A stretch of 64,000 bases of DNA, taken from Advenella mandrilli (lineage in GTDB: Bacteria; Pseudomonadota; Gammaproteobacteria; Burkholderiales; Burkholderiaceae_B). Positions 17,989 through 40,554 of the stretch are shown piece after piece. The notes under the pieces are model-generated. The model was not told the DNA's origin, made no database searches, and worked only from the letters and a program-made list of their open reading frames with translations. The position numbers and the translations under genes were made by a program. The stretch lies in assembly GCF_016595155.1 (NCBI RefSeq), contig NZ_JAENGP010000003.1, positions 1-64,000 on the forward strand, written 5' to 3'. The first letter of the stretch is position 1, and each line of letters begins with the position of its first letter.

Positions 17989-18022
17989 GTTCATTAAAAG
18001 AACATATGTTCATAATACGAAC
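17989..18022 (+). promoter_or_regulatory. Duplicated GTTC-N7-GAAC operator, site A
   Basis: GTTC-ATTAAAA-GAAC (17989-18003) and GTTC-ATAATAC-GAAC (18008-18022) are two intact palindromes separated by four bases (ATAT). This is the best-conserved of five sites with identical geometry in the window. It lies between the promoter and the ribosome binding site of the Bug gene at 18055. It is probably bound by the IclR regulator encoded at 38850-39620. Confidence 0.75.
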
Positions 18023-18054
18023 ATTTCTATTTTATATAAATATGGAGACAATAC

Positions 18055-19038
18055 ATGACGACCACAAAAAAAATGCTGGCACTGCTGGGACTGGCCTGCG
18101 GTATCAGCTTAACGCCCCTGAATCCGGCTCTTGCCAATGATACCCAATACCCCCAAAAACCAATCAGCCTGGTAATTGCCTTCCCTGCTGGCACCACGTC
18201 TGACTCCATTGGACGGATTTTTGCATCAGAATTAAGCAAGTCTATGGGTCAACCTGTCGTTGTCGAAAACAAGCCCGGTGGCAATGCGACGATCGCGGCA
18301 AAACATGCGGTAAAGGCCAAACCTGATGGTTATACTTTATTCCTGACCACCAATACCTCACATTCAGCCGCGCCATGGCTATTAAAAAATGTTGGCTATG
18401 ATCCCATCAAAGACTTTACCGCTATCAGCAGAATAGGAAACATCCCCTTTATTCTGGTTGCCAACAATAATGTCTCTGCCAATAAAGTACAGGACCTGGT
18501 CAGCCTGGCCAAACAAAAACCAGGTGAAATAACCTATGCCAGCGGTAATGCCACCGGCATCCTGGCCGGTGCCACCTTTAGTAACCGGGCCGGCATTGAT
18601 ATGTTGCACGTTCCTTATAAAGGGTCACCCAATGCACTGACTGACCTGATGGGCGGACGGGTGGATGTCATGTTCAATGACCTGCCATCCAGCCTGTCGT
18701 ATATCCAATCCAATAAAATCAAGGCGCTGGCTGTTGCCAGTGCAAAACCCAGCGCCATTGCACCAGACCTGGAGTCTATGGAAATGGCGGGTATTAACGA
18801 TTTTGACTTAAGCGCCTGGATGGGGGTCTTTGGACCGGCCGAGATGGATCCGGCAATCGTAAACCGCCTGAACACCGAGCTTAACAGAATTATTGCCGAT
18901 CCTGCCGTATACAAAAAATTGTCAGATATGGGATTTGACGCTTTCGGTTCCAAACCGGATGAGTTCGGACAATTCATTGCCGCCCAGCTGGATGTCTGGG
19001 GAGACATGATCAAAGAAGCGGGTATTGAACCACAATAA
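18055..19038 (+). CDS. Bug/TctC-family periplasmic receptor
   Basis: The 327-residue receptor has a Sec signal peptide (residues 1 to about 31, ending PALA-ND) and the family opening ISLVIAFPAGTTSDSIGRIF. It also has HVPYKGSPNALTDLMGGRVDVMF and the SAWMGVFGPAEMDP stretch. GGAGA lies eight bases before the ATG. It is the first gene of a plus-strand unit containing a second, frameshifted Bug gene and an alpha/beta-hydrolase. It sits under a consensus promoter with the duplicated operator, so it belongs to the 18-40 kb regulon. It presumably captures the regulon substrate in the periplasm. Confidence 0.92.
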   Translation: MTTTKKMLALLGLACGISLTPLNPALANDTQYPQKPISLVIAFPAGTTSDSIGRIFASELSKSMGQPVVVENKPGGNATIAAKHAVKAKPDGYTLFLTTNTSHSAAPWLLKNVGYDPIKDFTAISRIGNIPFILVANNNVSANKVQDLVSLAKQKPGEITYASGNATGILAGATFSNRAGIDMLHVPYKGSPNALTDLMGGRVDVMFNDLPSSLSYIQSNKIKALAVASAKPSAIAPDLESMEMAGINDFDLSAWMGVFGPAEMDPAIVNRLNTELNRIIADPAVYKKLSDMGFDAFGSKPDEFGQFIAAQLDVWGDMIKEAGIEPQ

Positions 19039-19116
19039 AACAGTAACAATCACTCGCTGTTTTTTTGCTTCAAGATTAAATAATATTTTTAATTCTTGAT
19101 TTTCAAGGAGGAAAAT

Positions 19117-20102
19117 TTGAATAAAAAAACCAAAAAACTGATACAGGCGATGCTCTTCACCTGCGTGGCATCCGGCATGGCCGCCAGTTCAGCACTCGCC
19201 CAGAACTACCCTAACCACCCCATCAAACTGGTTGTACCCTACCCTGCCGGTGCAGCGGTAGATAACGTCGGGCGCATGGTCGCCTCAGCCTTATCCGAAA
19301 AGCTGGACCAAACCATTATTGTTGAAAACCGTGATGGCGCAGCCTCACAAATTGGTTCCGCCCATGTGGCCAAAGCAAAGCCCGACGGCTATACATTACT
19401 GCTGACCACCCTGGATGCCCTGACCTTATTGCCACAAGTCAAAAAAAACCTTACCTATGACCCAATGGCCGATTTTCAGGATATTGCCAGAATCGCCCGT
19501 GTGCCTTACACCATCCAGTCCAACCCAAAGCTTGGGTTCAAATCCCTGGGTGACCTTGTGAATGCGGCAAAAGCGGCACCAGACAGCTTGAAATACGGTT
19601 CGACAGGAAATGGATCGCTTGCCCATGTTGCCATGGAAATGCTGTCCAACCAGGCTGATATCCAACTGATTCACGCTCCCTATCGGGGAATGGCGGCATC
19701 CCTCAATGATTTGATTGCCGGTCATATTGATTTGGCTATGGTGTCTGCGGCTACCATAGCCCCTTACGTCAAGACAGAAAAAGTACAGACTTTATCGCTG
19801 GCCTCGGCCGAAAAAACACCATGTGGCCCGAGATACCGCCAACCACTGACAGCGGCATTACCGGCGTTGAGGCAGAGCTTGAGTTCCTGGTAACCAGCCC
19901 GGCCGGAACGCCGCCTGAAATTGTCAATCTTGTTTCGGATGCAATCAACAGCATATCCCAAGAAGAAACCTTCCGTGAAAACCTGCAAAAGCAAGGGCTG
20001 GAACCCGCTTATATGGATGCAACCACATTATTGGCACGCCGCCAGAATGACAACAGGAAGTGGGAACAGGTAATTGCGCAATCTGGTATAGAGAAAGAGT
20101 AA
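19117..20102 (+). pseudogene. Frameshifted Bug/TctC-family receptor gene
   Basis: Two frames together make one Bug protein. The first runs from a TTG at 19117 (AAGGAGG six bases upstream) with a signal peptide and VVPYPAGAAVDNVGRMV, through HAPYRGMAASLNDLIAGHIDLAMV to SLASAEK. It then goes out of frame and stops at 19893. The other frame continues from about 19818 with MWPEIPPTTDSGITGVEAE and TSPAGTPPEIVN to the TAA at 20100-20102. The switch falls at the A6 run 19811-19816. One additional A would restore a full protein of about 328 residues, so this looks like a one-base loss. It may be a true pseudogene, a phase-variable tract or a sequencing error. Everything else in it looks intact. Confidence 0.85.
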
Positions 20103-20918
20103 ATGACACAAACCATTAAACAAATCCGGCACGATAACGTTACGATCGAATATATCGTCCAGGGCACGGGCACACCCATCATTATTCTTCCCTCATTGGG
20201 CAGGGGTCAAACAGACTACGATGAGCTGGCTGTTCTTCTGGAAAAACGCGGATTCAAAGTCATCAGGCCCCACCCCCGTGGCATTAACGGCAGCCAGGGC
20301 CCCATGACTGGCCTGACCCTGAAAGACCTGGCCGCTGATGTTGCCATGGTCATTCAGGCCGAAGGTGCCCCGGATGCCATTGTGGCCGGACATGCCTTGG
20401 GCAATTTCATTGCGCGCATGACCGCATCCATTTTCCCTAGGCTTGTTCGTGGTGTTGCCCTGCTGGCCGCCTCTGCCGGAAAAACCCCCTCTGGAGAGCC
20501 GTCCATTCCGCCTGACGTTCTGGAGTCAGTGACCCAAAGTGGTAATCTGACCCTCAATGAAACCGAGCGGATTGCCCATTTGCAGAAAGCCTTCTTTGCC
20601 CCTGGTAACGACTGCCGTTCATGGTTGCAGGGCTGGTATCCTGACATGAAAAAAACGCAATGGGATGCATGGCAGGCAACCCCCATCGACAGCTATTTTG
20701 CCGCCGGCACAGCACCTTTACTGGATGTACAGGCCGAACAGGATACCGTTGCGCCCAGACGGTTTTCAAGCGTTCTGAAAACGGAACTGGGAGATCGCGT
20801 AAGCACTACTGTCATTCCCAATGCGGGCCATGCATTAGTTCCCGAGCAACCGGAGGCCGTCTGTGATGCCCTGGCAGACTGGGCCACTACCTTAACGCCG
20901 GCCCGGGAAAGCGCCTGA
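20103..20918 (+). CDS. Alpha/beta-hydrolase-fold protein with Ala at the nucleophile position
   Basis: The 271 residues have the alpha/beta-hydrolase pattern: PIIILPSLGRGQTDYDELA, the nucleophile elbow VAGHALGN (residues 95-101), a late acid in VQAEQDTVAP and the histidine in NAGHALVPEQP. The elbow has Ala98 where Ser is expected (GHSxG). Ordinary serine hydrolysis is therefore impossible, unless another residue serves. GHAxGN proteins are a recurrent subfamily by my recollection. The ATG directly follows the stop of the frameshifted Bug gene, so the two are probably coupled. Regulon membership suggests a role in catabolism of the same substrate, perhaps a non-hydrolytic lyase or isomerase step. 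Confidence 0.85.
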   Translation: MTQTIKQIRHDNVTIEYIVQGTGTPIIILPSLGRGQTDYDELAVLLEKRGFKVIRPHPRGINGSQGPMTGLTLKDLAADVAMVIQAEGAPDAIVAGHALGNFIARMTASIFPRLVRGVALLAASAGKTPSGEPSIPPDVLESVTQSGNLTLNETERIAHLQKAFFAPGNDCRSWLQGWYPDMKKTQWDAWQATPIDSYFAAGTAPLLDVQAEQDTVAPRRFSSVLKTELGDRVSTTVIPNAGHALVPEQPEAVCDALADWATTLTPARESA

Positions 20919-20945
20919 CATCGTTAAGCGCAACAATGAAGTGAC

Positions 20946-20982: not shown

Positions 20983-21015
20983 AAACATGTCACTCAAGCC
21001 AAACGCTGACACTGA

Positions 21016-21981
21016 TTATTGTGCCTGGGCTCCCGAGTTTTTAACCGCCTGTCCCCAGCGAACCACTTCTTCCTGGAAATGCTTGTTAGCCTCTTCCGGC
21101 GTGTTTCCCCTTAACTCAAGACCTTGTTCCACGAGCGTTTTCTTGACGTCTTCGTTTTCCAGTGCCTTGTTCAAAGCGGAATTAAGTTTTTCAATGACAT
21201 CTTTAGGGGTTGCGGAAGGAACTGCAACCACGTGCCATGACTCTACCGTATAGTCCTTGAAACCTGATTCAATCATGGTAGGTACATCGGGCATCAAACC
21301 GGAGCGGGTAGCACCGGACTGCGCCAGAACACGGGCCCTGCCTGACTCAGCATAAGGACGTGCCAGAAATAAAGTATCCACCACCATATCCAGGTGCCCA
21401 CCTACCAGGTCAGTTACTGCCGGCGCGCTTCCTTTATAGGGCACATGGTTCATGGTGATGCCGGCGTCATGCAAAAACATGGCAGCCGCCAAATGTGCAG
21501 ACCCGCCCACGCCCGACGAACCATAATTCAATGAGTCCGGTTTTGCCTTGGCGATATCCACCAGCTCCTGGATTGTTTTGGCTGGCGAGGAGGGGGGCAC
21601 AATCACCACCAGGGGAACCGCAGCCACATCACCCACCATGGTTAAGTCTTTCAGGGTGTCATAGGGCATTTTTGGAACCAGTGATGCATTAATCGCCAAT
21701 GGGATTGCCGTCCACAAAAGCGTATAGCCGTCAGGATTGCTTTTGGCTACCTGGTCTGAACCGATCAGGGTGCCGGCACCGCCCTTGTTCTCAATAACAA
21801 GGGACTGCCCCAGAACATCCTGCATTTTACTGGAAACCGCACGGGCAACCTGGTCAACGGTGCCACCGGCCGGGAAAGGCACAATAACCCGGATCGGTTT
21901 ATTGGGAAATTCCTGGGCACTGACCCCAAGCGAAACACACAGGCCAATACCGGCCAACATTATTTTTTTAATCAAAACCAT
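21016..21981 (-). CDS. Bug/TctC-family periplasmic receptor
   Basis: The 321-residue receptor has a Sec signal peptide (about residues 1-22, ending VSAQ) and IRVIVPFPAGGTVDQVAR. It also has LNYGSSGVGGSAHLAAAM, HVPYKGSAPAVTDLVGGHLDMVVD and VPSATPKDVIEKLN. AAGGAGAT immediately precedes the ATG. It is the last gene of the minus-strand operon that starts at 27532, separated from the acyl-CoA dehydrogenase by 53 bases containing a strong hairpin. Placement after catabolic genes suggests it binds the same class of carboxylate. No TctAB membrane subunits are present. Confidence 0.92.
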   Translation of the reverse strand: MVLIKKIMLAGIGLCVSLGVSAQEFPNKPIRVIVPFPAGGTVDQVARAVSSKMQDVLGQSLVIENKGGAGTLIGSDQVAKSNPDGYTLLWTAIPLAINASLVPKMPYDTLKDLTMVGDVAAVPLVVIVPPSSPAKTIQELVDIAKAKPDSLNYGSSGVGGSAHLAAAMFLHDAGITMNHVPYKGSAPAVTDLVGGHLDMVVDTLFLARPYAESGRARVLAQSGATRSGLMPDVPTMIESGFKDYTVESWHVVAVPSATPKDVIEKLNSALNKALENEDVKKTLVEQGLELRGNTPEEANKHFQEEVVRWGQAVKNSGAQAQ

Positions 21982-22001
21982 ATCTCCTTGAATGATTTAA
22001 C

Positions 22002-22026
22002 AGCCATCTTCCCGGGGAAGATGGCT
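22002..22026. other. Intercistronic hairpin between acyl-CoA dehydrogenase and Bug gene
   Basis: AGCCATCTTC and GAAGATGGCT form a 10-bp perfect stem around a short C/G loop. On the plus strand it is followed by a T-rich run. On the minus strand, which carries the genes here, it is only an intercistronic stem-loop. It could tune relative expression of the receptor by protecting the mRNA. Confidence 0.55.
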
Positions 22027-22034
22027 ATTCTTTT

Positions 22035-23189
22035 TTATCTGAATGCCGCCATACCGGTCAGCTCACGGCCATGAATCATGGCCAGGATGCCCATCGTGCC
22101 GTCAGGTACCTGGAACATGCGTGCATCGCGCCACATTCTTTCCAGACCCAGCTCCTGGCTGATGCCCATACCACCATGCAATTGCATGGCAAGATTGATG
22201 GCTCTTTCGCTGGCATGGGTTGCATAGCGTTTGGCCATGGCTGACGTGCCATTTGAGCGCAAACCCTGATCCATGCAACTGAGGGCGTAATAACACATTA
22301 ATCTTGCACTGATAACCTGTGTTTCAATATCAGACAGATCCTGCTGCACCAACTGGTGCGCACCCAGCAGCTTACCAAACTGTTTTCTGGTTGAGACGTA
22401 TTCACGGCTCATTTCCAATGCTTTCTGCGCATCATGAACCGTCATCAGGCCCAGCAGGGGACGGTTGGCATTCCATGCCAGTGTCAGGTATTTACCGGCA
22501 TCGCCCGGCTCACCAATAATATGGGAAACAGGCACTTTGGTACGCTCAAAAACAACTTCACTCAAATGTCCCTGTTGCAAACCACTAACGGGAATTTCCC
22601 TTATTTCAACATCTGACTGGCTCAAATCCACCAGCACACGGCGCGTTAACGGGCGACCGTTTTCATCGGTTCCGCTATAGCAGGATACGTTCATGACATC
22701 ACAAATGGATGCATTCGTAATCCAGATTTTGCGACCTGTGATATAACCATATTCCCCTTCGATTTCCAGCTTGGTTTTTACCGCATTGGAATCAGAACCG
22801 GCTTCTGGCTCTGTATTGGCAGTACAAGCAATTTTTTTGCCGGCAATAAGATCGGGCAAATAAGCCTGGCGGATTTCTTCAGGGCAACCCGCATTAATCC
22901 GGGAAATCGTTCCTTCATGGGAAATAAGCGACAGCGCAATCACTGGCGGCAACTGTTCAACGATCATGCCAAAGTCCAGCATATTCAAGCCGCCACCGCC
23001 ATCCTCCACCGACAAGCGCGGGGCTGTGATACCCAGCTCGGCCAGCTGCTCGAAAATCTGCAGCATGACAGACTTTGGCAAGGGCTCTGTTACCGGATAC
23101 TGTGCAATCAAAGGCTCAATAAACTCTTTGGCAACACGACGTGTTGCCGAAACCATCATTTCCTGGTCTTCTGTTAATTTAAAATCCAT
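22035..23189 (-). CDS. Acyl-CoA dehydrogenase family protein
   Basis: The 384-residue flavoprotein has the usual three-domain layout. The N-terminal helical domain is followed by TANTEPEAGSD (residues 123-133, FAD and substrate contact), the beta domain with GRKIWITNA, and the C-terminal helices with STRKQFGK and QLHGGMGISQE. In typical medium- and short-chain enzymes the base is Glu in YEGT; here the corresponding segment reads QVPDGT, so D363 occupies that place. A weakened or altered base, or different chemistry, is possible. In its operon with hydratase, SDR and two thiolases it would make the first unsaturation of a CoA thioester. Confidence 0.9.
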   Translation of the reverse strand: MDFKLTEDQEMMVSATRRVAKEFIEPLIAQYPVTEPLPKSVMLQIFEQLAELGITAPRLSVEDGGGGLNMLDFGMIVEQLPPVIALSLISHEGTISRINAGCPEEIRQAYLPDLIAGKKIACTANTEPEAGSDSNAVKTKLEIEGEYGYITGRKIWITNASICDVMNVSCYSGTDENGRPLTRRVLVDLSQSDVEIREIPVSGLQQGHLSEVVFERTKVPVSHIIGEPGDAGKYLTLAWNANRPLLGLMTVHDAQKALEMSREYVSTRKQFGKLLGAHQLVQQDLSDIETQVISARLMCYYALSCMDQGLRSNGTSAMAKRYATHASERAINLAMQLHGGMGISQELGLERMWRDARMFQVPDGTMGILAMIHGRELTGMAAFR

Positions 23190-23212
23190 TTCTTTTCACT
23201 CTCATACAAAAT

Positions 23213-23500
23213 TCATACTGTCTGGACAGCCAGTACATCCAGCTCTCCCAGACCATCCCTTAATTTCCTGATTTCCCGGTATTCATCAGAATCCCACAGG
23301 TCCTGGATCGCCTGCAGGGAGGGGAACTCAAATACGGTAAGGCGTTCTTTATCAAATCTGCCCTCCAGCACGATGGGCGTTTCACGCTTAACCACATATT
23401 TCCCGCCATAAGAAGCGAAGCATTCACCGACCCTGGACTGATAGGGTTCCCATCCCTCACTCTTTAACACTTTGGTTACAACAATCATCAATGCAGCCAT
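23213..23500 (-). CDS. DUF1330-family small protein
   Basis: The 95 residues match DUF1330, a dimeric alpha/beta-barrel (ferredoxin-like) fold: ALMIVVTKVLKSEGWEPYQS at the start, GGKYVVKRETPIVLEGRF and VFEFPSLQAIQDLWDSDEYREI. A strong GGAGGAGA precedes the ATG. It lies between the acyl-CoA dehydrogenase and an enoyl-CoA hydratase. DUF1330 proteins often occur in catabolic operons but have no general assigned reaction. An isomerase, cyclase or monooxygenase-like auxiliary role in this pathway is only a possibility. Confidence 0.88.
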   Translation of the reverse strand: MAALMIVVTKVLKSEGWEPYQSRVGECFASYGGKYVVKRETPIVLEGRFDKERLTVFEFPSLQAIQDLWDSDEYREIRKLRDGLGELDVLAVQTV

Positions 23501-23533
23501 ATTTTGTCTCCTCCACTTCTGTCCTGTCAGGCG

Positions 23534-24337
23534 TCACGCACCCTTATATTCAGGTTTGCGTTTTTCCGCAAAAGCCACCCGCCCTTCTATCCGGTCTGTT
23601 GAATCACGCAACAAACCCCACTGCAGGTTTGAGTGCGATACAAAGTCACGCGGAGCCAGGTGAGCCGTTTCAACCGCCAGTTTTTTAACTGCCTGCACCG
23701 CCAGAGGGCCGTTTTGTGCAATTCTGCCGGCAATATCAAGCGCCATCGGCAATAAACCGCCCTGTTCCGCCACATCACTAACAATACCCATACGCAAGGC
23801 TTCCTGCGCATTGATACGGTCGCCGGTCAGCGCCATCTTAAGCGCATTGGCCGAACCGGTGGTACGCATCAAATACTGCACACCACCCACCGCAGGTACG
23901 CTGGCGACCTTGACTTCGGGCAAGGCAAAAGAGGCCGTGTCACTGGCAATGCGAATATCACATTGCAAGGCCAGCTCAAGCCCGCCGCCCAGGCAATAGC
24001 CGTTAATGGCGGCAATAAGCGGTTTCCATATTTCAAGATCGCTCAAGTCAATCAACCTTGTGTAACCGCCATGCAAAGCCTCTTTGTTACGACCATAAAG
24101 CTGCCCTTTGATAAAGCTGGAGTCGGGCGGCATGGTTTTTTTCAGGTTGGCACCGGCACAAAAGGCCTTGTCACCGGCACCCGTCAGGATAATGACACGT
24201 ACATTGTCGTCATTCTGCAAATCCACCAATAAGGACCGCATCTGCAAAACATCATCAATGGTCAGTGCATTCAGCGACTCTTGTGCATCCAGCACAACCG
24301 TTGCAATGTAATTTTCAATAGTATGTTGAATTGCCAT
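23534..24337 (-). CDS. Enoyl-CoA hydratase/isomerase
   Basis: From the ATG at 24337 (AAAGG six bases upstream; the longer frame to 24388 overlaps the SDR gene) the protein has 267 residues. Unlike the crotonases at 4.7 and 7.6 kb, it keeps both catalytic glutamates: GGGLELALQCD and LPEVKVAS. The oxyanion-hole segment is KAFCAGANLK. It would hydrate the enoyl-CoA made by the adjacent acyl-CoA dehydrogenase, giving a 3-hydroxyacyl-CoA for the SDR that precedes it in the operon. Confidence 0.9.
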   Translation of the reverse strand: MAIQHTIENYIATVVLDAQESLNALTIDDVLQMRSLLVDLQNDDNVRVIILTGAGDKAFCAGANLKKTMPPDSSFIKGQLYGRNKEALHGGYTRLIDLSDLEIWKPLIAAINGYCLGGGLELALQCDIRIASDTASFALPEVKVASVPAVGGVQYLMRTTGSANALKMALTGDRINAQEALRMGIVSDVAEQGGLLPMALDIAGRIAQNGPLAVQAVKKLAVETAHLAPRDFVSHSNLQWGLLRDSTDRIEGRVAFAEKRKPEYKGA

Positions 24338-24351
24338 AATTGCCTTTCCCG

Positions 24352-25098
24352 TTAAACACTTGGGCTGCTTAAAGAGCGGCCGCCGCAAACATATAATGTC
24401 TGTCCGGTAATGTAAGACGAGTTTTTCCCGATGAAAAACAGGATCGCCTGGGCAATATCTTCCGGTTGCCCAATGCGGCCTACCGGGACACTGGTTTTAA
24501 GGCGGTCTTTTACTTCAGGCTTGAAGTTATTAAATAAGGGCGTTTCAACAATACCCGGGGCAATGGCATTGGCCGTGATGCCTTCTTTTGCCAGCTCGAT
24601 AGCCAGGGAGCGGGTCAAACTGACGACGCCACCTTTAGCTGCCGAATAATTGGCCTGGCCAAAGCCACCCAGCCATGCGCGTGAAGAGATATTGACAATC
24701 CGGCCGTATTTTTGCTCAATCATGCCCGGAATGACTTCTTTCACACAAAGAAACTGTGATTTAAGATTCACGTTAATAACAAAGTCCCAATCTTCCTCTG
24801 TCATTTTGGTAATTCTTTTGTCTCTGGCGATCCCGGCATTATTAACAAGAATATCCGGGGTTTTCCATTTCTGGCTTACTTGTTCAACGCCTTTTTTGAC
24901 ATCTTCACTTGACGTCACATCAACACGAACCCCCATCAGGGAATCCGCATGTGCTTTAAGTTCGTTTTGAGCCTGTTCAATCGCCTGATCATTAATATCA
25001 AACATGGCCACTTTATAACCTGCTTCAAGCAACGCCTTGGTAACGCCCAATCCAATACCGTTTGCCCCACCCGTTACAACTGCAATTTCTTTATTCAT
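24352..25098 (-). CDS. SDR-family oxidoreductase (FabG / 3-hydroxyacyl-CoA dehydrogenase-like)
   Basis: The 248-residue classical short-chain dehydrogenase has cofactor motif TGGANGIG at 9-16, NNAG at 86-89, catalytic serine in NISS (138/139), and Tyr151 and Lys155 in YSAAK. The acidic D34 in FDIN after the second strand favours NAD over NADP. AAGGTGAG precedes the ATG. Its place between hydratase and thiolase genes makes oxidation of a 3-hydroxyacyl-CoA to the 3-oxo compound the most likely step. Confidence 0.9.
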   Translation of the reverse strand: MNKEIAVVTGGANGIGLGVTKALLEAGYKVAMFDINDQAIEQAQNELKAHADSLMGVRVDVTSSEDVKKGVEQVSQKWKTPDILVNNAGIARDKRITKMTEEDWDFVINVNLKSQFLCVKEVIPGMIEQKYGRIVNISSRAWLGGFGQANYSAAKGGVVSLTRSLAIELAKEGITANAIAPGIVETPLFNNFKPEVKDRLKTSVPVGRIGQPEDIAQAILFFIGKNSSYITGQTLYVCGGRSLSSPSV

Positions 25099-25121
25099 TT
25101 TCTCACCTTGCCTGTATTTGT

Positions 25122-26327: not shown

Positions 26328-26362
26328 GTTTTTCTCTTTACCAAAATAATTGCACAACAGGC

Positions 26363-27532: not shown

Positions 27533-27574
27533 ATCAACTCCTTTTCCTTGACGCTATTTTCACTTACTAAATTT

Positions 27575-27608
27575 GTTCTCTATCCGAACATTTGTTCGTA
27601 TTATAGAT
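27575..27608 (-). promoter_or_regulatory. Duplicated GTTC-N7-GAAC operator overlapping a -10 box, site B
   Basis: On the plus strand: GTTC-TCTATCC-GAAC, then ATTT, then GTTC-GTATTAT-AGAT. The geometry is that of site A. On the minus strand TATAAT (27605-27600) abuts the GAAC half-site, 68 bases before the thiolase ATG. Binding here would block the promoter of the 27.5-21.0 kb operon. Confidence 0.75.
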
Positions 27609-27674
27609 ATAATAAATCATTTATTGCTTTTTTCCAAGCATTATTTTTACCCGTATTTAATTGAAATATAAAAT

Positions 27675-27722
27675 AAAAAGGCAATAAGAAGCCTCCCAGA
27701 ATGAACAGGAATTCTTATTGCC
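27675..27722 (-). terminator. Terminator of the Liv/CoA-transferase operon
   Basis: GGCAATAAGAA at 27680-27690 pairs perfectly over 11 bp with TTCTTATTGCC at 27712-27722. On the minus strand five Ts follow. It lies 75 bases after the hydrolase stop codon, so it ends the operon that starts at 34571. Confidence 0.8.
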
Positions 27723-27796
27723 AACAAAAAAAACAGACATTAAAAAGGTGTCATTAATTCAGTAAAAATATCTTAAAAAGACATTTCCCCGATCAA

Positions 27797-28657: not shown

Positions 28658-28665
28658 GTTAATCC

Positions 28666-30163: not shown

Positions 30164-30165
30164 TT

Positions 30166-31907: not shown

Positions 31908-32040
31908 TATCTATCCCTTTTCAAAGGAACCATTAAAACAGTGATACAAAAACCAAACATCGGCAAAGTTATGATGGCGGCCGGTTTTTAAAACCAGAAC
32001 CAGACCAGCCCCCATCAGGTTGCGATGATGAGTGAGTCAA

Positions 32041-33165: not shown

Positions 33166-33208
33166 ATAGATGTCTCCGTTTTATTAATCGCTTGCTACGA
33201 ACTGTTTT

Positions 33209-33880
33209 TTAAAAAGAAAGCTTTGCTTCTGTCCTTTCCTGTAAATACTCCCTGCTTACCCCAGGTGCCATATCCACCACCTGGAAACCGGTTGCAGTAA
33301 TATCCAGCACGGCCAGATTGGTATACACCCGTGATACCGCATCACTGGCGGTCAAGGGATAAGAACACTTACTCATCAGGCGGGGTTTACCGTCTTTGGT
33401 GGTGTGCTCCATTAACACCCAAAGCCTTTTAGCACCCACCGCCAGATCCATTGCACCGCCTACGGCAGGTGCGGTATCTGTTTCTGACAGCGCCCAGTTG
33501 GCAATATCACCGCTGCTACTCACATCGTAAGCACCCAGCACGCACAAATCCAAATGCCCGCCACGAATCATGGCGAAGCTATCGGCATGATGCACATAAG
33601 ACCCCCCTTGTTTCAGGGTAATGTATTGCTTGCCGGCGTTAATCAGCCATGGCTCAATCTCATTTTCCTGTGGTGTCGGGCCTATGCCGATCACACCGTT
33701 TTCTGCGTGAAATATGACTTCTTTATCATCTCCCACGTAATTGGCCACCAGGGTTGGGATACCAATACCCAGATTGACAAACCACCCGTCATTAATATCC
33801 TGTGCCAAGCGCTCTGCCATTTGATTGCGGGTCCAGGGTTTCACTGTTTCATTCAATTCTTTATCTGTTACTGTCGACAT
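33209..33880 (-). CDS. 3-oxoacid CoA-transferase subunit B (PcaJ/ScoB-like)
   Basis: From the ATG at 33880 (AGGAGA seven bases upstream; the frame to 33910 would overlap subunit A) it has 223 residues. The family hallmarks are GWFVNLGIGIPTLVANYV and the catalytic glutamate E60 in AENGVIGIGP, followed by GGSYVHHADSFAMIRGGHLD. With subunit A it transfers CoA from succinyl-CoA or another donor to an acid. It could activate the imported acid, or a 3-oxo-dicarboxylate late in the pathway in the manner of PcaIJ. Confidence 0.93.
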   Translation of the reverse strand: MSTVTDKELNETVKPWTRNQMAERLAQDINDGWFVNLGIGIPTLVANYVGDDKEVIFHAENGVIGIGPTPQENEIEPWLINAGKQYITLKQGGSYVHHADSFAMIRGGHLDLCVLGAYDVSSSGDIANWALSETDTAPAVGGAMDLAVGAKRLWVLMEHTTKDGKPRLMSKCSYPLTASDAVSRVYTNLAVLDITATGFQVVDMAPGVSREYLQERTEAKLSF

Positions 33881-33890
33881 TATTTTTCTC

Positions 33891-34571
33891 CTAGAGCTGG
33901 GGTGATCCATATGGAAGGTGTACTACGCGATCCACAAAAACACCGGGTGTCACCACGGACTCCGGGTCCAGTTCACCCAACTCTGCTGTGTGCTGGGTCT
34001 GGGCAATCGTTAGTTTGGCGGCCATCGCACAAACCGGATTGAAATTTCTGCCCGACTGTTTATAAGTCAGGTTCCCCCAGCGATCCGCCTGCCATGCCTC
34101 AATCAGCGCTACATCACCATGCAGGGCTTCTTCCAGCACATATTTGCGTCCATGATATTCACGCACTTCCTTGTTATTGCTTAACAGGGTATCCACACCG
34201 GTTGGCGTGAAAAAAGCGGGTATGCCGGCACCGGCGGCACGCATGCGCTCTGCCAGGGTTCCCTGTGGCACCAGCTCCAGTTCAATTTTTCCTGCTTTAT
34301 ACATATTTTCAAAAATGGTGGAGCCTGCAATCCTTGGAAAACTGCAAATCAAACGACGCACCCGACCAGCCTCTAGCAGACGGGCCAAACCAACCTTGCC
34401 ATAACCGGCATTATTCGCAACAACCGTCAGATCTTTTGCTCCCTGCTCAATCAAACCTTCAATAAGATGAACCGATTGACCAACCGCACCAAACCCGCCC
34501 AATAGGACAGTTGAACCATCCTGGACACCTTCCAGCGCTTCTGCTACTGAGTTAACAAACTTTGAAATCAT
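33891..34571 (-). CDS. 3-oxoacid CoA-transferase subunit A (PcaI/ScoA-like)
   Basis: The 226 residues match the alpha subunit: VQDGSTVLLGGFGAVGQSVHLIEGL, the NNAGYGKVGLARLLEAGRVRR segment (residues 53 to 73), and ELVPQGTLAERMRAAGAGIPAF with FTPTGVDT. AGGT is six bases before the ATG. It is the first gene of the operon running to 27797 and lies under duplicated operator site C. Subunit B begins ten bases after its stop codon. Confidence 0.93.
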   Translation of the reverse strand: MISKFVNSVAEALEGVQDGSTVLLGGFGAVGQSVHLIEGLIEQGAKDLTVVANNAGYGKVGLARLLEAGRVRRLICSFPRIAGSTIFENMYKAGKIELELVPQGTLAERMRAAGAGIPAFFTPTGVDTLLSNNKEVREYHGRKYVLEEALHGDVALIEAWQADRWGNLTYKQSGRNFNPVCAMAAKLTIAQTQHTAELGELDPESVVTPGVFVDRVVHLPYGSPQL

Positions 34572-34626
34572 AAATTACCTGATATTTTGATTTTCAAGGA
34601 CAGGCTGTACAAGCAACAAGCAAAAT

Positions 34627-34660
34627 GTTTGTATGCCAGACATTTGTCCGAATTATAAAT
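34627..34660 (-). promoter_or_regulatory. Duplicated operator overlapping a -10 box, site C
   Basis: Plus strand: GTTT-GTATGCC-AGAC, ATTT, GTCC-GAATTAT-AAAT. The half-sites are degenerate, but spacing and ATTT linker are identical to sites B and E. On the minus strand TATAAT occupies 34657-34652, 81 bases before the CoA-transferase A start. It is the weakest match of the five. Confidence 0.6.
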
Positions 34661-34720
34661 AAAAAAAATATAAAATTGATCTATGGTTTGTACTAATAGT
34701 ACAAACCACTTGATCTATCT

Positions 34721-35185
34721 TTAGTCAAATTTGGAAGACCGGGGGGCTGACCCTGTGAATCCTTCATTGACTGGACTATAAAAATAAAACGTTATTTTTC
34801 TGGATTTGAACTTCCAGACCCCGTTTTCCCTAACCATCACATCATCATAATGGCCTGCCGAGGTATAAGACACACCGTTAGAAATGGAAATATATTCCAT
34901 GGAAATACGGCCTGTGGCCGTATCGCCATCAATATTTACCGTGCCATTGGTACAAAAGTGCCAAAACTGTTCTGCCACTTTAGGCACATCCTGTGAGAAA
35001 AACGTCATGATTTCCTCATGGCCAGACACTTTGGACAACCCTTCAAAAACCCCGTCTTTGGTAAATAGGTTTACAAAGTCTTCCCATTGCATATCATCCA
35101 GCAAGTGGCAATACGTCGCCCTTAACCTGATAATCTCCAGCTCATCTTCCACTTTTTGCAAACGTTGTTCCAACGATAATGTCAT
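34721..35185 (-). CDS. SnoaL-like / nuclear transport factor 2-fold protein
   Basis: The 154 residues fit the SnoaL_4 pattern: an N-terminal helix (LEQRLQKVEDELEIIRLRATYCHLLDD), then WEDFVNLFTKDGVFEGL, GRISMEYISI, and the late VRENGVWKFKSRKITFYFYSP. Family members are small isomerases, dehydratases, or the beta subunit-like fold of dioxygenases; no companion alpha subunit is present. GAGGAAG precedes the ATG. It is the last gene of the operon from 37581, 14 bases after the Tat-type LivJ gene. It probably catalyses a ring or double-bond isomerisation or dehydration in the pathway. Confidence 0.85.
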   Translation of the reverse strand: MTLSLEQRLQKVEDELEIIRLRATYCHLLDDMQWEDFVNLFTKDGVFEGLSKVSGHEEIMTFFSQDVPKVAEQFWHFCTNGTVNIDGDTATGRISMEYISISNGVSYTSAGHYDDVMVRENGVWKFKSRKITFYFYSPVNEGFTGSAPRSSKFD

Positions 35186-35199
35186 TTCTTCCTCTCTAA

Positions 35200-36324
35200 T
35201 TAAGCAATTACTTTGGCAACACCTGATTCAACCCGGTTGATCTGGATTGGCATGATTGACGTTGCATTATCACTGAACTCAATATCACCCCCGGCAAATT
35301 GGAAACTGCGCACTTCACGCAATGCAGCCAGAAGCGTATCGCCATTAACCGGCTCGCCTTTTTTCTCAAGATGTTCAAGCAGATAAGCAAAAAGCAGGGT
35401 GCCGTTATAGTAATTCTGGGCATAGCTGGTTGGGTCAGATTTATATTTTTCACGCCATTCATTAATAAATCTGGCCGTCAGTTTATCGCTTAAGGTCAGG
35501 TCATTACGCTGGGTTGTAAAAATCAGCCCTTCCGCTTCTGGCAGGTTGGCCACTGAAGGCAGGCTGCCAATTGAATAGGTCATTAACAGCTGCTTCAGCC
35601 CGGCATCCCTGAGCTGCTTGATAATTTGCAGTTGCTGTGAACCGTAGCTCGCAAAATAAACGACTTCGGCATCGGTATTGCGAATTCTTGCCGCAATCGC
35701 GGAAAACTGCTCCATACCAGGCGGCACGCTATAAGAACCCACCAGCTCGCCATCAATTTTTGGCAGTTCCGCTTTCAATTGCTTTAATACCGCTGCCCCC
35801 AGGGGGTCATCAATATAAACCAGTGCTACTTTCTTTTTGCCCTGGGTTTTCAACCATTGAATGGCAGGTGGGATTTCCTGGTCAGCCAAAGGAATGATAT
35901 TCCAGAAATAAGGTGACAACTCACCCAGTTCCGGGCTAACCCCGCCGCCATTCATCATAATGACTTTCTGGCGGATACCAATAGGCGCCGCCGCTTTTGA
36001 AACACCGGTCACGCCAAGCAATACATATTGGGCATGATCCACGTTCACCAGACGCGACATCCCTACTGCCCCACCCTGAGGGGTTGCCAGACTGTCCTGT
36101 GCCTTCAGCTCAATAGGACGCGACAACCTGTTATCCTGTTTGATATGTTCCAGTGCCAGCGTCACACCATTCATAAACACGGCACCCAACTCTGCCACAG
36201 AACCCGACATAGGAAAGAGCGTACCCAAACGGTAGGCTTCTTTACTTTGTGCAAAAACATTAAAGGAAGGCGCAACGGCCAATGCAGCACCGGCTTTTAA
36301 AAGATCACGTCTGGTAATTGCCAT
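35200..36324 (-). CDS. Second Liv-type periplasmic ligand-binding protein, Tat-exported
   Basis: The 374-residue Peripla_BP_6 protein has a twin-arginine signal (MAITRRDLLKAGAALAVAP, ending VFAQ). The paralogue at 32041 has a Sec signal. The two share GTLFPMSG, DSLATPQGGAVGMSRL-type, GVSKAAAPIG and LSPYFWNIIPLADQE segments. AGGAG precedes the ATG. It lies in a different operon with no permeases, so it may share the livHMGF channel as an alternative receptor. Tat export implies folding, or ligand loading, in the cytoplasm before transport. Confidence 0.9.
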   Translation of the reverse strand: MAITRRDLLKAGAALAVAPSFNVFAQSKEAYRLGTLFPMSGSVAELGAVFMNGVTLALEHIKQDNRLSRPIELKAQDSLATPQGGAVGMSRLVNVDHAQYVLLGVTGVSKAAAPIGIRQKVIMMNGGGVSPELGELSPYFWNIIPLADQEIPPAIQWLKTQGKKKVALVYIDDPLGAAVLKQLKAELPKIDGELVGSYSVPPGMEQFSAIAARIRNTDAEVVYFASYGSQQLQIIKQLRDAGLKQLLMTYSIGSLPSVANLPEAEGLIFTTQRNDLTLSDKLTARFINEWREKYKSDPTSYAQNYYNGTLLFAYLLEHLEKKGEPVNGDTLLAALREVRSFQFAGGDIEFSDNATSIMPIQINRVESGVAKVIA

Positions 36325-36383
36325 TTTTTGTCTCCTGTCACTCTTCTATTGAAAGTGGATTGAATTTGATTTTTTATCGCTTT

Positions 36384-37268
36384 TTAAAATGGTGACGGCT
36401 CAAAGCTGAAACCATTTCCATCTCTTCTGATATACCCGCAATAAGGATCACCAAAATGCACGGGCAATATCAGTGAGTTGCTGTCAGCGGCTTTATTAAG
36501 AAATTCATAACGGGTATTGCGGGCCACATCCGGGTAAATGCAATAACCTGAATTGATTTCCGGCATCACGATCTGCATGGGGCTATGGAAAATATCACCA
36601 CTGAAAACTGCCTCTTCACCCTGTGAACGAATCCGGAAGGCAACTTGACCCGGACTGTGCCCGGCTGCGTCTTCCACCTGCAGGCAATCGGCAATTTCCA
36701 TGCCGGGCCGTATCATGACGGCCAGGCCTTCATTAACAACAGGCATGACACTATCGTGAAAAGATTCACCGAACACATCTATTTTTTCTTCTTTATTCTT
36801 ACCTTGCTCACAGAATTTGAAGTCCAGTTCGGGAATGTAATATTTTGCATTCGGAAAGGTCGGGGTCCAACGGTTATCGACCCAGCGCGTATTCCATCCC
36901 ACATGATCGGAATGCAAATGCGTTAACACCACATGCGTCACCTTCTCTGGTGGTGCACCGGCCGCTTCCAGCCACTCCAGAATCAGGTTATTCAGCATGT
37001 GCATGCGCGGAATATCCTGGCGATTCTTGAAGTTGCCCACGCCCGTATCCACCACGATAATATTGGAGCCGGCATGCACCACCCACAACTGGATGGTCAC
37101 AATCAGCTTGTTCATATGTGGAATCCAGTGATTGGGGGCCATCCAGCTTTCATTTTCTTCCAGGGCGTGCTGATCCATTTCAGGAAGCAGGAACCTGGGG
37201 TCATGTGAAGGAGCGGAATACTCCTGGATTCGGGTTACCCGTACATCACCAATTTGTTTGATTTGCAT
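36384..37268 (-). CDS. MBL-fold (metallo-beta-lactamase superfamily) hydrolase
   Basis: The 294 residues have the metal-binding HLHSDH at 117-122 (VLTHLHSDHVGWNT). Further ligands are in EDAAGHSPGQVAF and the late LPVHFGDP. DTGVGNF precedes the metal motif, as in lactonase-like and related members. AAGGATAG precedes the ATG. It lies between the muconolactone-isomerase-like gene and the Tat-type LivJ. A lactone- or thioester-hydrolysing role would suit the pathway, but the substrate cannot be read from sequence. Confidence 0.88.
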   Translation of the reverse strand: MQIKQIGDVRVTRIQEYSAPSHDPRFLLPEMDQHALEENESWMAPNHWIPHMNKLIVTIQLWVVHAGSNIIVVDTGVGNFKNRQDIPRMHMLNNLILEWLEAAGAPPEKVTHVVLTHLHSDHVGWNTRWVDNRWTPTFPNAKYYIPELDFKFCEQGKNKEEKIDVFGESFHDSVMPVVNEGLAVMIRPGMEIADCLQVEDAAGHSPGQVAFRIRSQGEEAVFSGDIFHSPMQIVMPEINSGYCIYPDVARNTRYEFLNKAADSNSLILPVHFGDPYCGYIRRDGNGFSFEPSPF

Positions 37269-37302
37269 TGTCTATCCTTGAGAATGGAATAATTTTTATT
37301 AT

Positions 37303-37581
37303 TTATTTGATGGAGCTGGGGTGTTTGGCCAAAGGCACTACCTTGATGGAAAAATACGGGAACATGGGTAACGATGACAGCAAGTCATGCAGCTCATCGT
37401 TACTTTCACAGTCAAAAATGGAAATATTGGCAGGACGGCCTGCAACACGCCATAAATGTACAAACTTGCCCGATTTCTGCATTTCAATGGCACGGTTTTT
37501 TTCTGCCTCACGCAGCTTTGCCAGCTCGGCCGGATCTATATCGGCAGGAACGTTTACATCCATCATTACGCAATAAAGCAT
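37303..37581 (-). CDS. Muconolactone-isomerase-like protein (CatC family)
   Basis: From the ATG at 37581 (AGGAG seven bases upstream; the longer frame would run into the promoter) it has 92 residues, close to CatC (about 96). MLYCVMMDVNVPADI, GKFVHLWRVAGRPANISIFD and LLSSLPMFPYFSIKVVPLAKHPS are all CatC-like. CatC isomerises muconolactone to 3-oxoadipate enol-lactone. No cycloisomerase (catB) or catechol dioxygenase is in the window, so this copy probably acts on an analogous lactone or enone. It is first in its operon, under operator site D. Confidence 0.9.
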   Translation of the reverse strand: MLYCVMMDVNVPADIDPAELAKLREAEKNRAIEMQKSGKFVHLWRVAGRPANISIFDCESNDELHDLLSSLPMFPYFSIKVVPLAKHPSSIK

Positions 37582-37613
37582 TTCATATCTCCTAGAAAAT
37601 TGGTATATAATTT

Positions 37614-37647
37614 GTTCGTTATGCAAACTTTTGTTTGTATTATAGAT
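37614..37647. promoter_or_regulatory. Duplicated operator in divergent promoter region, site D
   Basis: Plus strand: GTTC-GTTATGC-AAAC, TTTT, GTTT-GTATTAT-AGAT. Minus-strand TATAAT is at 37644-37639, 58 bases before the CatC-like ATG. The site also lies 118 bases upstream of the divergent cyclase gene at 37765 and may control both directions. Confidence 0.7.
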
Positions 37648-37764
37648 AAACCTCTTGTTTTGTCAATTATATTTTTCCCTTAATACACGAGAAATAAATA
37701 CCGCCATACAATGTTGTTTATCTGTATTTCACCAAGATGAAACTTGTCATAAAAGGAGACGACA

Positions 37765-38811
37765 ATGCGTTGGAAAAACAGGCCGGATGGTTCTAACTGG
37801 GGAGATTACGGGCCAGACGATCAACTGGGCAGACTGAATTTATTAACCGAGGAAGTAGTATTAAAGGCAGCGGCAGAAATAAAAACAGGAAAAACCTTTT
37901 GCCTGTCCCTGCCACTGGATTACCCGGGTGGCAATGTACTTAACCCCCGCCGTACCCCCCCACAACTGCAACCAACTGAACGGGAAGGCCATCCCTATTT
38001 CAACTTCCCCATGGCCATGCTGGTTCCCGGTGCGCATGATGTGCTTAGCGATGACAAGGTTACCCTTTGCCTGCAATACTCGTCGCAATGGGATAGCCTG
38101 AGCCATGTTGGCGCCCTTTTTGACGCTGATGGTGACGGTCACGCCGAACGGGTTTATTACAATGGTTTCAGGCCCAACCAGGATATCCAGGGCCCAGCCG
38201 ACTACGATGAGCGCAATAATTTTGCCCAAAGCGATACCGGCCTTAAGCACTCTTCTGCCAAAGCACTGGATATTGCCAATTTTGCCGTTAAAGGCATCCA
38301 GGGCCGGGGGGTTATGGTGGACTTGGCTGCCCACTATGGCCGTGAGCCTAAAATCATTGGCTATGATGACTTAATGCGGGTAATGGAAAAAGATAATGTG
38401 TTGATAGAACAAGGTGATATTCTTGTATTACACACGGAGTTTGCCCAATACTTGCTGGAAGCCGGTAAAAACCCGGACCCCCATACGGTACATAATATAT
38501 GCACCACTCTGAATGGGCAGGATGAAAAATTGCTGCAATGGATTACCGATTCTGGTATTGCCGCCATTGCGGCAGACAATTATGGTGTTGAGTACCCGGG
38601 AGGCTCTTTAACCGACCGGTGCTGCGCCCTGCTGCCATTGCACCATCACTGCATTTTCAAGCTGGGTATGCCTTTGGCCGAGTTATGGTACCTTAGCGAC
38701 CTTGCAAAATGGCTAAGGGAAAACAAACGCTCACGTTTTATGTTAACCGCCCCCCCATTAAGGCTGCCGGGCGCAGTCGGCTCACCCGTGACCCCTATTG
38801 CCACGGTTTAA
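37765..38811 (+). CDS. Cyclase-family (PF04199) metal-dependent hydrolase
   Basis: The 348 residues have the putative-cyclase/kynurenine-formamidase pattern: a metal-binding SQWDSLSHVGALFD segment around residues 111-124, GVMVDLAAHYG, ALLPLHHHC and the WLRENKRSRFMLTAPPLRLPG tail. AAGGAG is at seven bases. Known relatives hydrolyse amides or lactams such as N-formylkynurenine or isatin, or ring-containing esters. It is monocistronic, divergent from the CatC-like operon across operator site D. Ring opening by hydrolysis is the most natural role here, but is inference. Confidence 0.88.
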   Translation: MRWKNRPDGSNWGDYGPDDQLGRLNLLTEEVVLKAAAEIKTGKTFCLSLPLDYPGGNVLNPRRTPPQLQPTEREGHPYFNFPMAMLVPGAHDVLSDDKVTLCLQYSSQWDSLSHVGALFDADGDGHAERVYYNGFRPNQDIQGPADYDERNNFAQSDTGLKHSSAKALDIANFAVKGIQGRGVMVDLAAHYGREPKIIGYDDLMRVMEKDNVLIEQGDILVLHTEFAQYLLEAGKNPDPHTVHNICTTLNGQDEKLLQWITDSGIAAIAADNYGVEYPGGSLTDRCCALLPLHHHCIFKLGMPLAELWYLSDLAKWLRENKRSRFMLTAPPLRLPGAVGSPVTPIATV

Positions 38812-38821
38812 TGCCATAAAC

Positions 38822-38856
38822 AAGGTAATGGCGCGGCACGCCCGCCCCATTACCTT
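38822..38856. terminator. Shared hairpin between convergent cyclase and iclR genes
   Basis: AAGGTAATGG and CCATTACCTT form a perfect 10-bp stem with a 15-nt GC-rich loop between the two convergent genes, overlapping the iclR stop codon. Neither side has a long T-run, so termination strength is uncertain. Confidence 0.55.
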
Positions 38857-39620
38857 ATATTTGCCGAACCCAGCACCATACTGATTTTTCTGGCTGCATC
38901 AAAAAGCACGGGCAGGAATTTTTTCTCCATTTGGCTAAGGGAAGTTCTGGCGGACAGGGTTACCACGTTAATCGCCGCAATCGCTTTCTGGTCGCGATCC
39001 AGAATGGGAACGGAAATGGAGCGCACCCCTATTTCCAGGCCACCATCATTGATGGCAAAACCGTTTTTGCGAATTTCGGCAATTTTTCGCCTGAATTTTT
39101 CTCTATCTGTAATGGTATTATCGGTATATTCTTTAAGTTCGGTTTTTTCCAGCCAGCGCTCAAACTCGTCGTCACTCATGCCTGCCAGCAATACCATGCC
39201 CATTGAGGTTGTATGGGCCGGCAAACGCGTACCTACTTCAATACTGTTGGAATAAACCCGGTCTTTTTCCACACGGGCAACATATACAATTTCGTCATTG
39301 TCCAGCACTGCCATTGAAGATGATTCTCCGAGGGTATCGGTTACTTTCTGGATAATGGAATAAGCCGCTTCGCCCAAGCCAAAGGTGGAAAGGTAATCGC
39401 TACTGAATTTCAGCACCTTGGGCGTTAACCAGAAAAACTTGCCATCGGAAGCCACAAAACCCAAAGTACATAATGTCAGCAAAAACCTTCTTGCGGTACC
39501 CCTGGTAAGATCTGTTCTGGCAGCGACCTGGGTCAGGGTCATTTTCTGGTGCCCCTTTTCAAAACAGCCAAGTACGTTTAACCCTCTTGCCAGTGAGTTA
39601 ACAAAATCCGGCTCACTCAT
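38850..39620 (-). CDS. IclR-family transcriptional regulator (PcaR/PobR-like)
   Basis: The 256 residues begin FVNSLARGLNVLGCF, typical of the PcaR/PobR/CatR-type branch. The helix-turn-helix is TLTQVAARTDLTRGTARRFL (about residues 29-48). The effector domain contains VARVEKDRVYSNSIEVGTRLPAHTTSMG and ISVPILDRDQKAIAAINV. Unlike the paralogous pair at 2.9 and 10.2 kb, this one belongs to the beta-ketoadipate-regulator group. It is the only regulator inside the 18-40 kb block and the best candidate to bind the five duplicated GTTC-N7-GAAC sites. It has a poor Shine-Dalgarno sequence and no copy of that operator in its own upstream gap. Confidence 0.92.
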   Translation of the reverse strand: MSEPDFVNSLARGLNVLGCFEKGHQKMTLTQVAARTDLTRGTARRFLLTLCTLGFVASDGKFFWLTPKVLKFSSDYLSTFGLGEAAYSIIQKVTDTLGESSSMAVLDNDEIVYVARVEKDRVYSNSIEVGTRLPAHTTSMGMVLLAGMSDDEFERWLEKTELKEYTDNTITDREKFRRKIAEIRKNGFAINDGGLEIGVRSISVPILDRDQKAIAAINVVTLSARTSLSQMEKKFLPVLFDAARKISMVLGSANIR

Positions 39621-39767
39621 TTAAAATACCAATCCTGTAAAGTTATATAAATTACTGCTCCGCCCGTTTGAAACCAGGCAAGAGGCTGCTTTGCATCGCA
39701 CAAACAACAACACGAATAATACATGAGTGAATTATAAGAAATTTGAAACTGTCTGTATCACAATTAT

Positions 39768-40313
39768 TTATTCTTTCATTTTATACCACTGGGGGTAATA
39801 CTCTTGCACAATTGAACCTGAAACATCCAGCGCATGACAGCCATTGACCGATAAAGGCCTGGCTGCTGGGTCTACCGGTATATTCCCTACTGTGGTCTGG
39901 ATGGCAGCCGTTGCCATGGTACCAATTAGTTCGGTAATATGCGTACAGCCTTTGGTACCGCCAAACAATTCTGCCACCCGTGAACGGAAACCACCCTTGA
40001 TTTGCACGCCCTTCAATTTGGCATACTCAGGGGCAATCCTTTCACAGACGGGTGAATAAGGGGTAGAGTGCGACATAGCCTCTGCGTCCACAATAGTCAG
40101 GGAGTTATCAATCGTGATACGCAGGGTCATTTCATGAATGGGTTTGTTGGCCGGATGCACATGGCTAACCAGTTTATGGTCATGCGTTTTGACATCCTTG
40201 ATATAGCCTTCTATATCCCATAAGCCATCCTGTCTCTTGTAACCCTCTATCAGAATTTGTCTCGTATGCGTTTTTGTCCGCTCAACCTTGGGCTCTGAAA
40301 ATAATGCAGTCAT
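39768..40313 (-). CDS. DUF2889-family protein
   Basis: The 181 residues match DUF2889: KTHTRQILIEGYKRQDGLWDIEG (residues 14-36), HDHKLVSHVHPANKPIHEMTLRI, VDAEAMSHSTPYSPVCERI and GCTHITELIGTMATAA. The conserved Cys and His residues (CTH, HVH, CxxI) could bind metal or act catalytically. No reaction is known to me. It is alone on its transcript under operator site E, which places it in the same regulon as the thiolases and Liv transporter. That is the best functional clue available. Shine-Dalgarno is weak. Confidence 0.88.
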   Translation of the reverse strand: MTALFSEPKVERTKTHTRQILIEGYKRQDGLWDIEGYIKDVKTHDHKLVSHVHPANKPIHEMTLRITIDNSLTIVDAEAMSHSTPYSPVCERIAPEYAKLKGVQIKGGFRSRVAELFGGTKGCTHITELIGTMATAAIQTTVGNIPVDPAARPLSVNGCHALDVSGSIVQEYYPQWYKMKE

Positions 40314-40388
40314 ATGATTTTCTTTGGAATTAGGAAAAATAAAAATGTGATTCAGACATAGCGTATGTAATGTTAGCGCTTGCTATTT

Positions 40389-40422
40389 GTCCGAACAACA
40401 AACATTTGTTCGTATTATAAAA
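40389..40422 (-). promoter_or_regulatory. Duplicated operator overlapping a -10 box, site E
   Basis: Plus strand: GTCC-GAACAAC-AAAC, ATTT, GTTC-GTATTAT-AAAA. Minus-strand TATAAT is at 40419-40414, 101 bases before the DUF2889 start. Spacing and linker are the same as in sites B and C. Confidence 0.7.
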
Positions 40423-40508
40423 AATACACCCGTAATGTCAATACAAATCTACAATCTGCATTATTGCAAACCAACGAATACCAAATTTCATATAAAAACC
40501 ATAAGCAC

Positions 40509-40540: not shown

Positions 40541-40554
40541 ACTTCTCCTGACAC

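Follow-up and report, generated by a model that had tools for sequence, protein, structure and literature searches.

In the first 64,000 nucleotides of contig NZ_JAENGP010000003.1 of Advenella mandrilli (the window), five 34-bp sites, named A to E, precede the five apparent transcription units of a catabolic gene cluster. These sites are predicted to be the operators of one local regulon, bound by the IclR-family regulator encoded at 38850-39620 within the same cluster, and we put the probability of this reading at roughly 0.8. A single regulon under this regulator had been proposed in the initial annotation of the window, and it was supported here by the score of the protein against its family profile, by the position of site E and by the association between site and regulator across genomes.

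Anatomy of the sites and their promoters

The five sites are as follows.

17989-18022, plus strand: site A, in which all four boxes are exact; it starts 8 bp downstream of the -10 box of a TTGACA-16-TATAAT promoter and precedes bugA (18055)
27575-27608, minus strand: site B, three boxes, with TATAAT replacing the fourth; upstream of the ltp-thl-sdr-ech-DUF1330-acd-bug operon
34627-34660, minus strand: site C, whose three boxes are all inexact; it precedes the CoA-transferase-Liv-enol-lactonase operon
37614-37647, minus strand: site D, with three boxes; it is flanked by the catC-like operon on the minus strand, towards which its TTGACA-16-TATAAT promoter reads, and by the cyclase gene on the plus strand
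40389-40422, minus strand: site E, with three boxes; its promoter is TTGACA-16-TATAAT, and it precedes DUF2889-iclR

All five were located in the window sequence where the initial annotation had placed them, and they share one register, in which the palindrome centres are 19 bp apart. The distance to the next start codon is 32-75 bp by the coordinates of the open reading frames (ORFs), with the catC-like gene taken from the ATG at 37581. The annotation had read every site as GTTC-N7-GAAC-N4-GTTC-N7-GAAC. The register stood, and the four-box reading stood only in site A, which alone among the five has four boxes. Matches to the full string were 16/16 for A, 13 for B, 12 for E, 11 for D and 10 for C, and the earlier description, with at most three half-sites degenerate, was too favourable to the string; C has no exact half-site.

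In promoter orientation, box 1 of B, C, D and E matches GTTC in 1, 2, 1 and 2 of 4 letters, respectively, because it is the TATAAT region, and the four-box reading was rejected for these sites as box 1 coincides with the -10 box. Boxes 2-4 are present, often degenerate, in all five sites, and in B-E each matched 2-4 of 4 letters. The unit common to B-E is, in the direction of transcription, TATAAT-N2-RRAC-AWAW-GTYY-N7-RRAC, that is, three boxes of the form GAAC-N4-GTTC-N7-GAAC, with the core box starting 2 bp after TATAAT.

The consensus promoter previously reported just upstream of site A was found, and perfect TTGACA-16-TATAAT promoters are present at A, D and E, those at D and E being the only 12/12 promoter matches in 22000-41500. 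On the cyclase side of site D there is a promoter-like match, TTCATA-18-TATAAT (10/12), and site D begins 2 bp after its -10 box. With the operator over or just after the -10 box, a bound protein would cover -10/+1, which together with the perfect promoters at A, D and E suggests a repressor. If the regulator binds, control by repression is therefore likely.

A distinctly less probable explanation is that the same IclR protein and sites act in ligand-dependent activation, or in both repression and activation. PcaU and PobR are activators, and for PcaU, PobR and Pseudomonas PcaR activator or dual action is known; the A. mandrilli protein matches the family profile to which these belong (TIGR02431). 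At B and C, the -35 box before the TATAAT is poor (2/6 letters), which could mean activation, and B has an alternative promoter, TTGGAA-17-TATTAT, at 9/12. The activators of the family and the poor -35 boxes weigh against repression. Activation is in turn opposed by the placing of the operators over or just after the -10 box at all five promoters and by the perfect -35/-10 pairs at A, D and E.

For repression, the following is the likely mechanism. A dimer of dimers (the IclR tetramer) would occupy the two inverted repeats, and as their centres are 19 bp, or about two helical turns, apart, both dimers would lie on the same face of the DNA. Bound IclR would block RNA polymerase until a pathway intermediate, such as a muconolactone- or 3-oxoadipate-like acid, releases it. 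Release would allow expression of Liv and Bug uptake, lactone isomerase, lactone hydrolases, CoA transfer, thiolysis, beta-oxidation and the regulator itself.

Specificity and conservation of the motif

With a threshold of at least 11/16 letters, the full four-box string was also found at other, chance places in the window (11-12/16), therefore the string alone does not discriminate. A matrix made from seven sites of other genomes ranked A-E first to fifth in the window, with 26.6-33.5 bits, compared with a best score of 22.5 in 100 dinucleotide shuffles. Because four of the seven sites come from A. faeciporci, where they correspond to A, C, D and E, the ranking shows conservation and not independent discovery; two others lie before the pcaI and catC homologues of relative G059 and one is from relative G034. 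When each site was left out in turn of a matrix made within the window, the ranks were 6 for A, 9 for C and 5 for B, D and E, and all places that ranked higher were themselves among the five, or were the same sites in a different register or on the other strand.

The pattern CRRACAWAWGTYYGN6RRAC gave four exact matches in the 3.28-Mb draft genome, all of them B-E, a count that is partly circular as the pattern was designed with the window sites in view. The initial annotation had named occurrence of the pattern at many unrelated promoters as refuting the regulon, and the scan did not refute it. With up to two mismatches, there were 19 matches compared with 37 for the reversed control, showing no excess elsewhere; nine were at the five sites and ten elsewhere. 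Eight of these ten are within stop-to-stop frames 120 codons long or longer (one right at the frame start) and two are outside such frames, and further regulon members elsewhere in the genome were rejected as candidates. An earlier, stricter pattern recovered only B and E of the five sites, with 33 matches compared with 32 in the control.

The CRRACAWAWGTYYGN6RRAC search, with up to one mismatch, was applied to four relatives. Exact matches numbered one in G115, two in G040, two in G059 and, in G034, one palindromic place counted twice. All were inside iclR clusters, and the A. faeciporci C site was recovered at one mismatch. Outside the iclR clusters there were four one-mismatch matches (one in G115, one in G040 and two in G034) compared with seven control matches.

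In comparison with A. faeciporci, site identity was 33/34 for A (flanks 124/160), 31/34 for C (129/160), 31/34 for D (117/160) and 33/34 for E (89/160). Site E was also 33/34 identical in A. alkanexedens, where the flanks were at 66/160. A counterpart of site B was not found in 48 kb from A. faeciporci, and the ltp, thl, sdr and acd genes were likewise not found there. In 52 kb of A. alkanexedens, the regulon genes present at high identity were iclR, the cyclase gene and pcaD, and only site E was found (31.1 bits).

It could be argued that the sites are chance resemblances between A+T-rich promoters with TATAAT boxes, as the intergenic DNA is A+T-rich and the loose four-box string has chance matches. 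The results of the shuffles, the outside matrix, the genome-wide scan and the comparison of sites with their flanks all argue against this, and leave chance a negligible explanation.

The regulator and its association with the sites

The predicted binder of A-E is listed below.

38850-39620, minus strand: IclR-family regulator of the PcaR/PcaU/PobR type (TIGR02431; Pfam HTH_IclR and IclR_C)

The protein scored 305.4 bits against NCBIfam TIGR02431 (cut-off 284.75) over residues 4-249, and PF09339 and PF01614, the winged-helix and C-terminal effector domains, were both above their cut-offs. Among the ORFs scanned it is, as first annotated, the sole regulator inside the interval; two more IclR genes, at 2877-3659 and 10217-10999, are in the window outside the interval. 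As site E precedes the operon that carries this iclR gene, we infer autoregulation of the DUF2889-iclR operon.

The link between site and regulator was examined at 31 loci with related iclR genes, comprising the 27 best-scoring of one set and four others, with 39-85% identity and chosen by relatedness, not by TIGR02431. The tandem with the 4-bp linker was present within 300 bp upstream at 21, 19 and 15 loci with at least 13, 14 and 15 of 16 letters matched, respectively. For the best other linker the figures were 6, 1 and 0 loci, and 20 composition shuffles gave means of 0.55, 0 and 0. The A. mandrilli locus was left out of this set; its 300 bp contain no tandem, since DUF2889 separates iclR from site E.

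Altogether, operator sites were found in two Advenella species, two genera of the same family and one Paracoccus plasmid. In a relative from another genus of the same family (IclR 64% identical), sites precede the pcaI and catC homologues, and in a relative with an IclR at 45% a site with 15/16 box letters is between divergent iclR and pcaI. Two Meiothermus loci (IclR 46%) have 14/16 box letters about 117 bp upstream. The Paracoccus plasmid was fetched by similarity to the MmlL-like protein, not by the motif, with 5 of 835 plasmid records opened; it carries an IclR at 47% beside pcaI, with matches of 21.1 and 20.4 between them. On this plasmid, the two matches are at 10016-10086, 44 bp apart. 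A weaker match (13.9) was also seen on it, before an alpha/beta hydrolase gene at 20617.

An alternative binder would be a regulator of another family encoded elsewhere, such as one of the TetR type, as the central GAAC-N4-GTTC palindrome by itself might fit families other than IclR. However, related iclR genes in different genomes are preceded by the tandem with its fixed 4-bp linker, and no operator was found in three clusters that have similar enzymes but a LysR regulator, where the best scores were 7.0, 7.6 and 12.5 (the last in a coding gene). A non-IclR regulator was therefore rejected and is considered very improbable. In an Aminobacter record with an MBL (metallo-beta-lactamase) protein at 49%, the best score was 8.5; a LysR gene is about 6 kb away, and no IclR is annotated in the stretch. 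For the other IclR_C matches of the A. mandrilli genome, no site scoring above 12.7 was found within 1.5 kb, compared with 35.8 here.

Several observations weigh against a single regulon of this IclR. Ten of the 31 iclR loci have no tandem at 13 or more of 16 letters within 300 bp, several of them with a near-identical helix-turn-helix (HTH) region. Many of the 31 share a genus, and four (both Advenella relatives, G059 and G034) also serve the other comparisons. Site C is hardly better kept than its flanks (91% compared with 81%), a weak contrast. Site A has two mismatches to the pattern used in the genome scan and is closer to another IclR gene, at 10217-10999.

The last point raises the possibility that site A is read by the neighbouring 10217-10999 regulator and that the regulon proper is B-E, the more so as IclR paralogues can share similar boxes according to the available text of PMC8222616. 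As judged by eye, a TTCTATTWTRTGGAA-like stretch, unlike A, is found before the 10217-10999 gene and before the operon behind it, and is kept in three Advenella genomes. The HTH sequences of this protein and of the other window IclR differ from that of the 38850-39620 protein, and the outside matrix finds A, though it contains the A orthologue. Control of A by the neighbouring regulator is therefore unlikely, and A is retained in the predicted regulon of the 38850-39620 IclR as its least secure member.

Gene content and comparison with known systems

The genes behind the sites are listed below, with operon limits derived from gene spacing.

18055-20918, plus strand: Bug receptor, shortened second Bug receptor and alpha/beta hydrolase (profile matches), behind site A
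21016-27532, minus strand: seven-gene operon for a lipid-transfer-type thiolase, acetyl-CoA acetyltransferase, short-chain dehydrogenase/reductase, enoyl-CoA hydratase, DUF1330 protein, acyl-CoA dehydrogenase and Bug receptor
27797-28657, minus strand: PcaD-like enol-lactonase (TIGR02427, 104.5 bits, below the cut-off of 255.85)
28666-33165, minus strand: Liv-type ABC importer (LivK, H, M, G, F; profile matches)
33209-33910, minus strand: 3-oxoacid CoA-transferase subunit B, PcaJ/MmlG-like (TIGR02428, above cut-off)
33891-34571, minus strand: 3-oxoacid CoA-transferase subunit A, PcaI/MmlF-like (TIGR02429, above cut-off)
34721-35185, minus strand: SnoaL_4-fold protein (PF13577)
35200-36324, minus strand: second LivK-type binding protein (profile match)
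36384-37268, minus strand: MBL-fold hydrolase, MmlL-like (71% to the Cupriavidus necator H16 pHG1 gene in the mmlL position)
37303-37581, minus strand: CatC/MmlJ-like muconolactone isomerase (PF02426; 63 and 67% to the mmlJ-position genes of two Cupriavidus plasmids)
37765-38811, plus strand: putative cyclase, divergent from site D (Pfam PF04199)
39768-40313, minus strand: DUF2889 protein, first gene before iclR (Pfam PF11136)

The unit behind C (34571-27797) comprises the CoA-transferase, Liv and enol-lactonase genes, that behind D (37581-34721) the catC-like, MmlL-like, LivK and SnoaL genes, and that behind E (40313-38850) DUF2889 and iclR. What had been annotated as two thiolase/beta-oxidation units is one apparent operon, from 27532 down to 21016, with two thiolases. 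The second Bug receptor (19096-19893) is short, covering only positions 2-182 of 274 of the TctC profile; COG3181 is the family to which we take the Bug receptors to belong. For DUF2889, no paper tying it to such a pathway was found in the open-licence literature.

After the SnoaL gene there is an inverted repeat, GGTTTGTAC...GTACAAACC (34685-34707), with a T-rich stretch behind it; in A. faeciporci its arms are kept and its loop is changed. It may terminate transcription of the D operon, although it was absent from the output of the terminator scan. Beyond site E, 40555-41058 encodes a stand-alone protein that is similar to the initial portion of the antitoxin DarG, at 72.9 bits with a cut-off of 250. 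The other two Advenella have it at 93 and 96% identity. The ORFs of a YbaK-type deacylase (42021-42641) and XerD (42514-43407) overlap by 128 bp as listed; the deacylase probably starts later than listed, because its profile match begins at residue 54.

Identity to the pHG1 genes in the mmlL, mmlJ, mmlF and mmlG positions is 71% for the MBL-fold protein, 63% for the CatC-like protein, and 62 and 51% for CoA-transferase subunits A and B, and the MBL gene is mmlL-like by gene order. A search of 399 genomes from the order recovered the MBL protein in two, that of A. mandrilli itself and another, at 38%. No hit came from the close relatives G040, G115 and G059, which were evidently outside the 399-genome draw. 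MmlI (PF09448) was found neither in the own genome nor in G040 or G059, with pHG1 as a positive control at 260.1 bits, and strict membership in the methylmuconolactone (mml) pathway was therefore rejected. Elsewhere, the genome has another catC-type gene, which scores higher, and two genes for intradiol dioxygenases; operator control of these was rejected, the best nearby scores being 7.6 for the former and 11.6 and 5.5 for the latter.

The cluster is similar to the mml branch of the 3-oxoadipate pathway, but has no MmlI and adds Liv and Bug importers. Its substrate is probably a substituted muconolactone or similar acid, which is perhaps imported. With somewhat less than an even chance, the cluster could encode an undescribed IclR-governed pathway for breaking down an imported compound (a substituted muconolactone, or a related lactone or dicarboxylic acid), combining MmlL-, MmlJ- and MmlFG-like enzymes without MmlI or MmlR, Liv/Bug uptake and a beta-oxidation operon under one operator with the -10 box in place of its fourth half-site.

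These results provide a concrete, testable candidate regulon for this catabolic cluster and a fixed 19-bp tandem operator tied to one regulator clade over several genera. The step is modest because the operator layout has already been described. The link of an IclR to mml-like genes, if true, would widen the known control of methyl-aromatic breakdown.

In the available text of PMC6449761, mmlLRFGHIJ is the 4-methylmuconolactone operon, with the LysR protein MmlR; this was the only paper that the open-licence literature gave for IclR with methylmuconolactone, and it assigns MmlR. The Advenella cluster is like the Cupriavidus mmlLRFGHIJ operon in having the MmlL, MmlJ and MmlFG homologues together. 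It differs in its regulator, an IclR in place of the LysR protein, with no LysR regulator among the cluster ORFs scanned, and in transport, with Liv/Bug importers in place of a major facilitator superfamily transporter.

No paper describing an IclR operator as two palindromes in those words was found in the open-licence literature. The geometry is nevertheless already published in the available text of PMC8222616 (Suvorova & Gelfand 2021), where tandem sites with centres 18-22 nt apart in 94 groups are tied to tetramer binding and three boxes of alternating direction are predicted in 32 IclR orthologous groups. The same text describes IclR regulons of aromatic catabolism that include Liv importers, COG3181 and CoA-transferase pairs, and three-box sites for PcaU, PobR and HmgR, with the extra box needed for PcaU binding; its main text does not name the genus Advenella. 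The Advenella operators have the same GTTC/GAAC-type boxes, and their 19 nt are within the 18-22 nt of PMC8222616; unlike the sites described there, four of the five have the -10 box in the position of the outer box.

The closest regulators are PcaU and PobR of Acinetobacter and PcaR of Pseudomonas, which are in the same NCBIfam family as the 38850-39620 protein. They control protocatechuate and 4-hydroxybenzoate genes, mostly as activators. Unlike these, the Advenella regulator is associated with an mml-like cluster, and its predicted operators are positioned over -10/+1.

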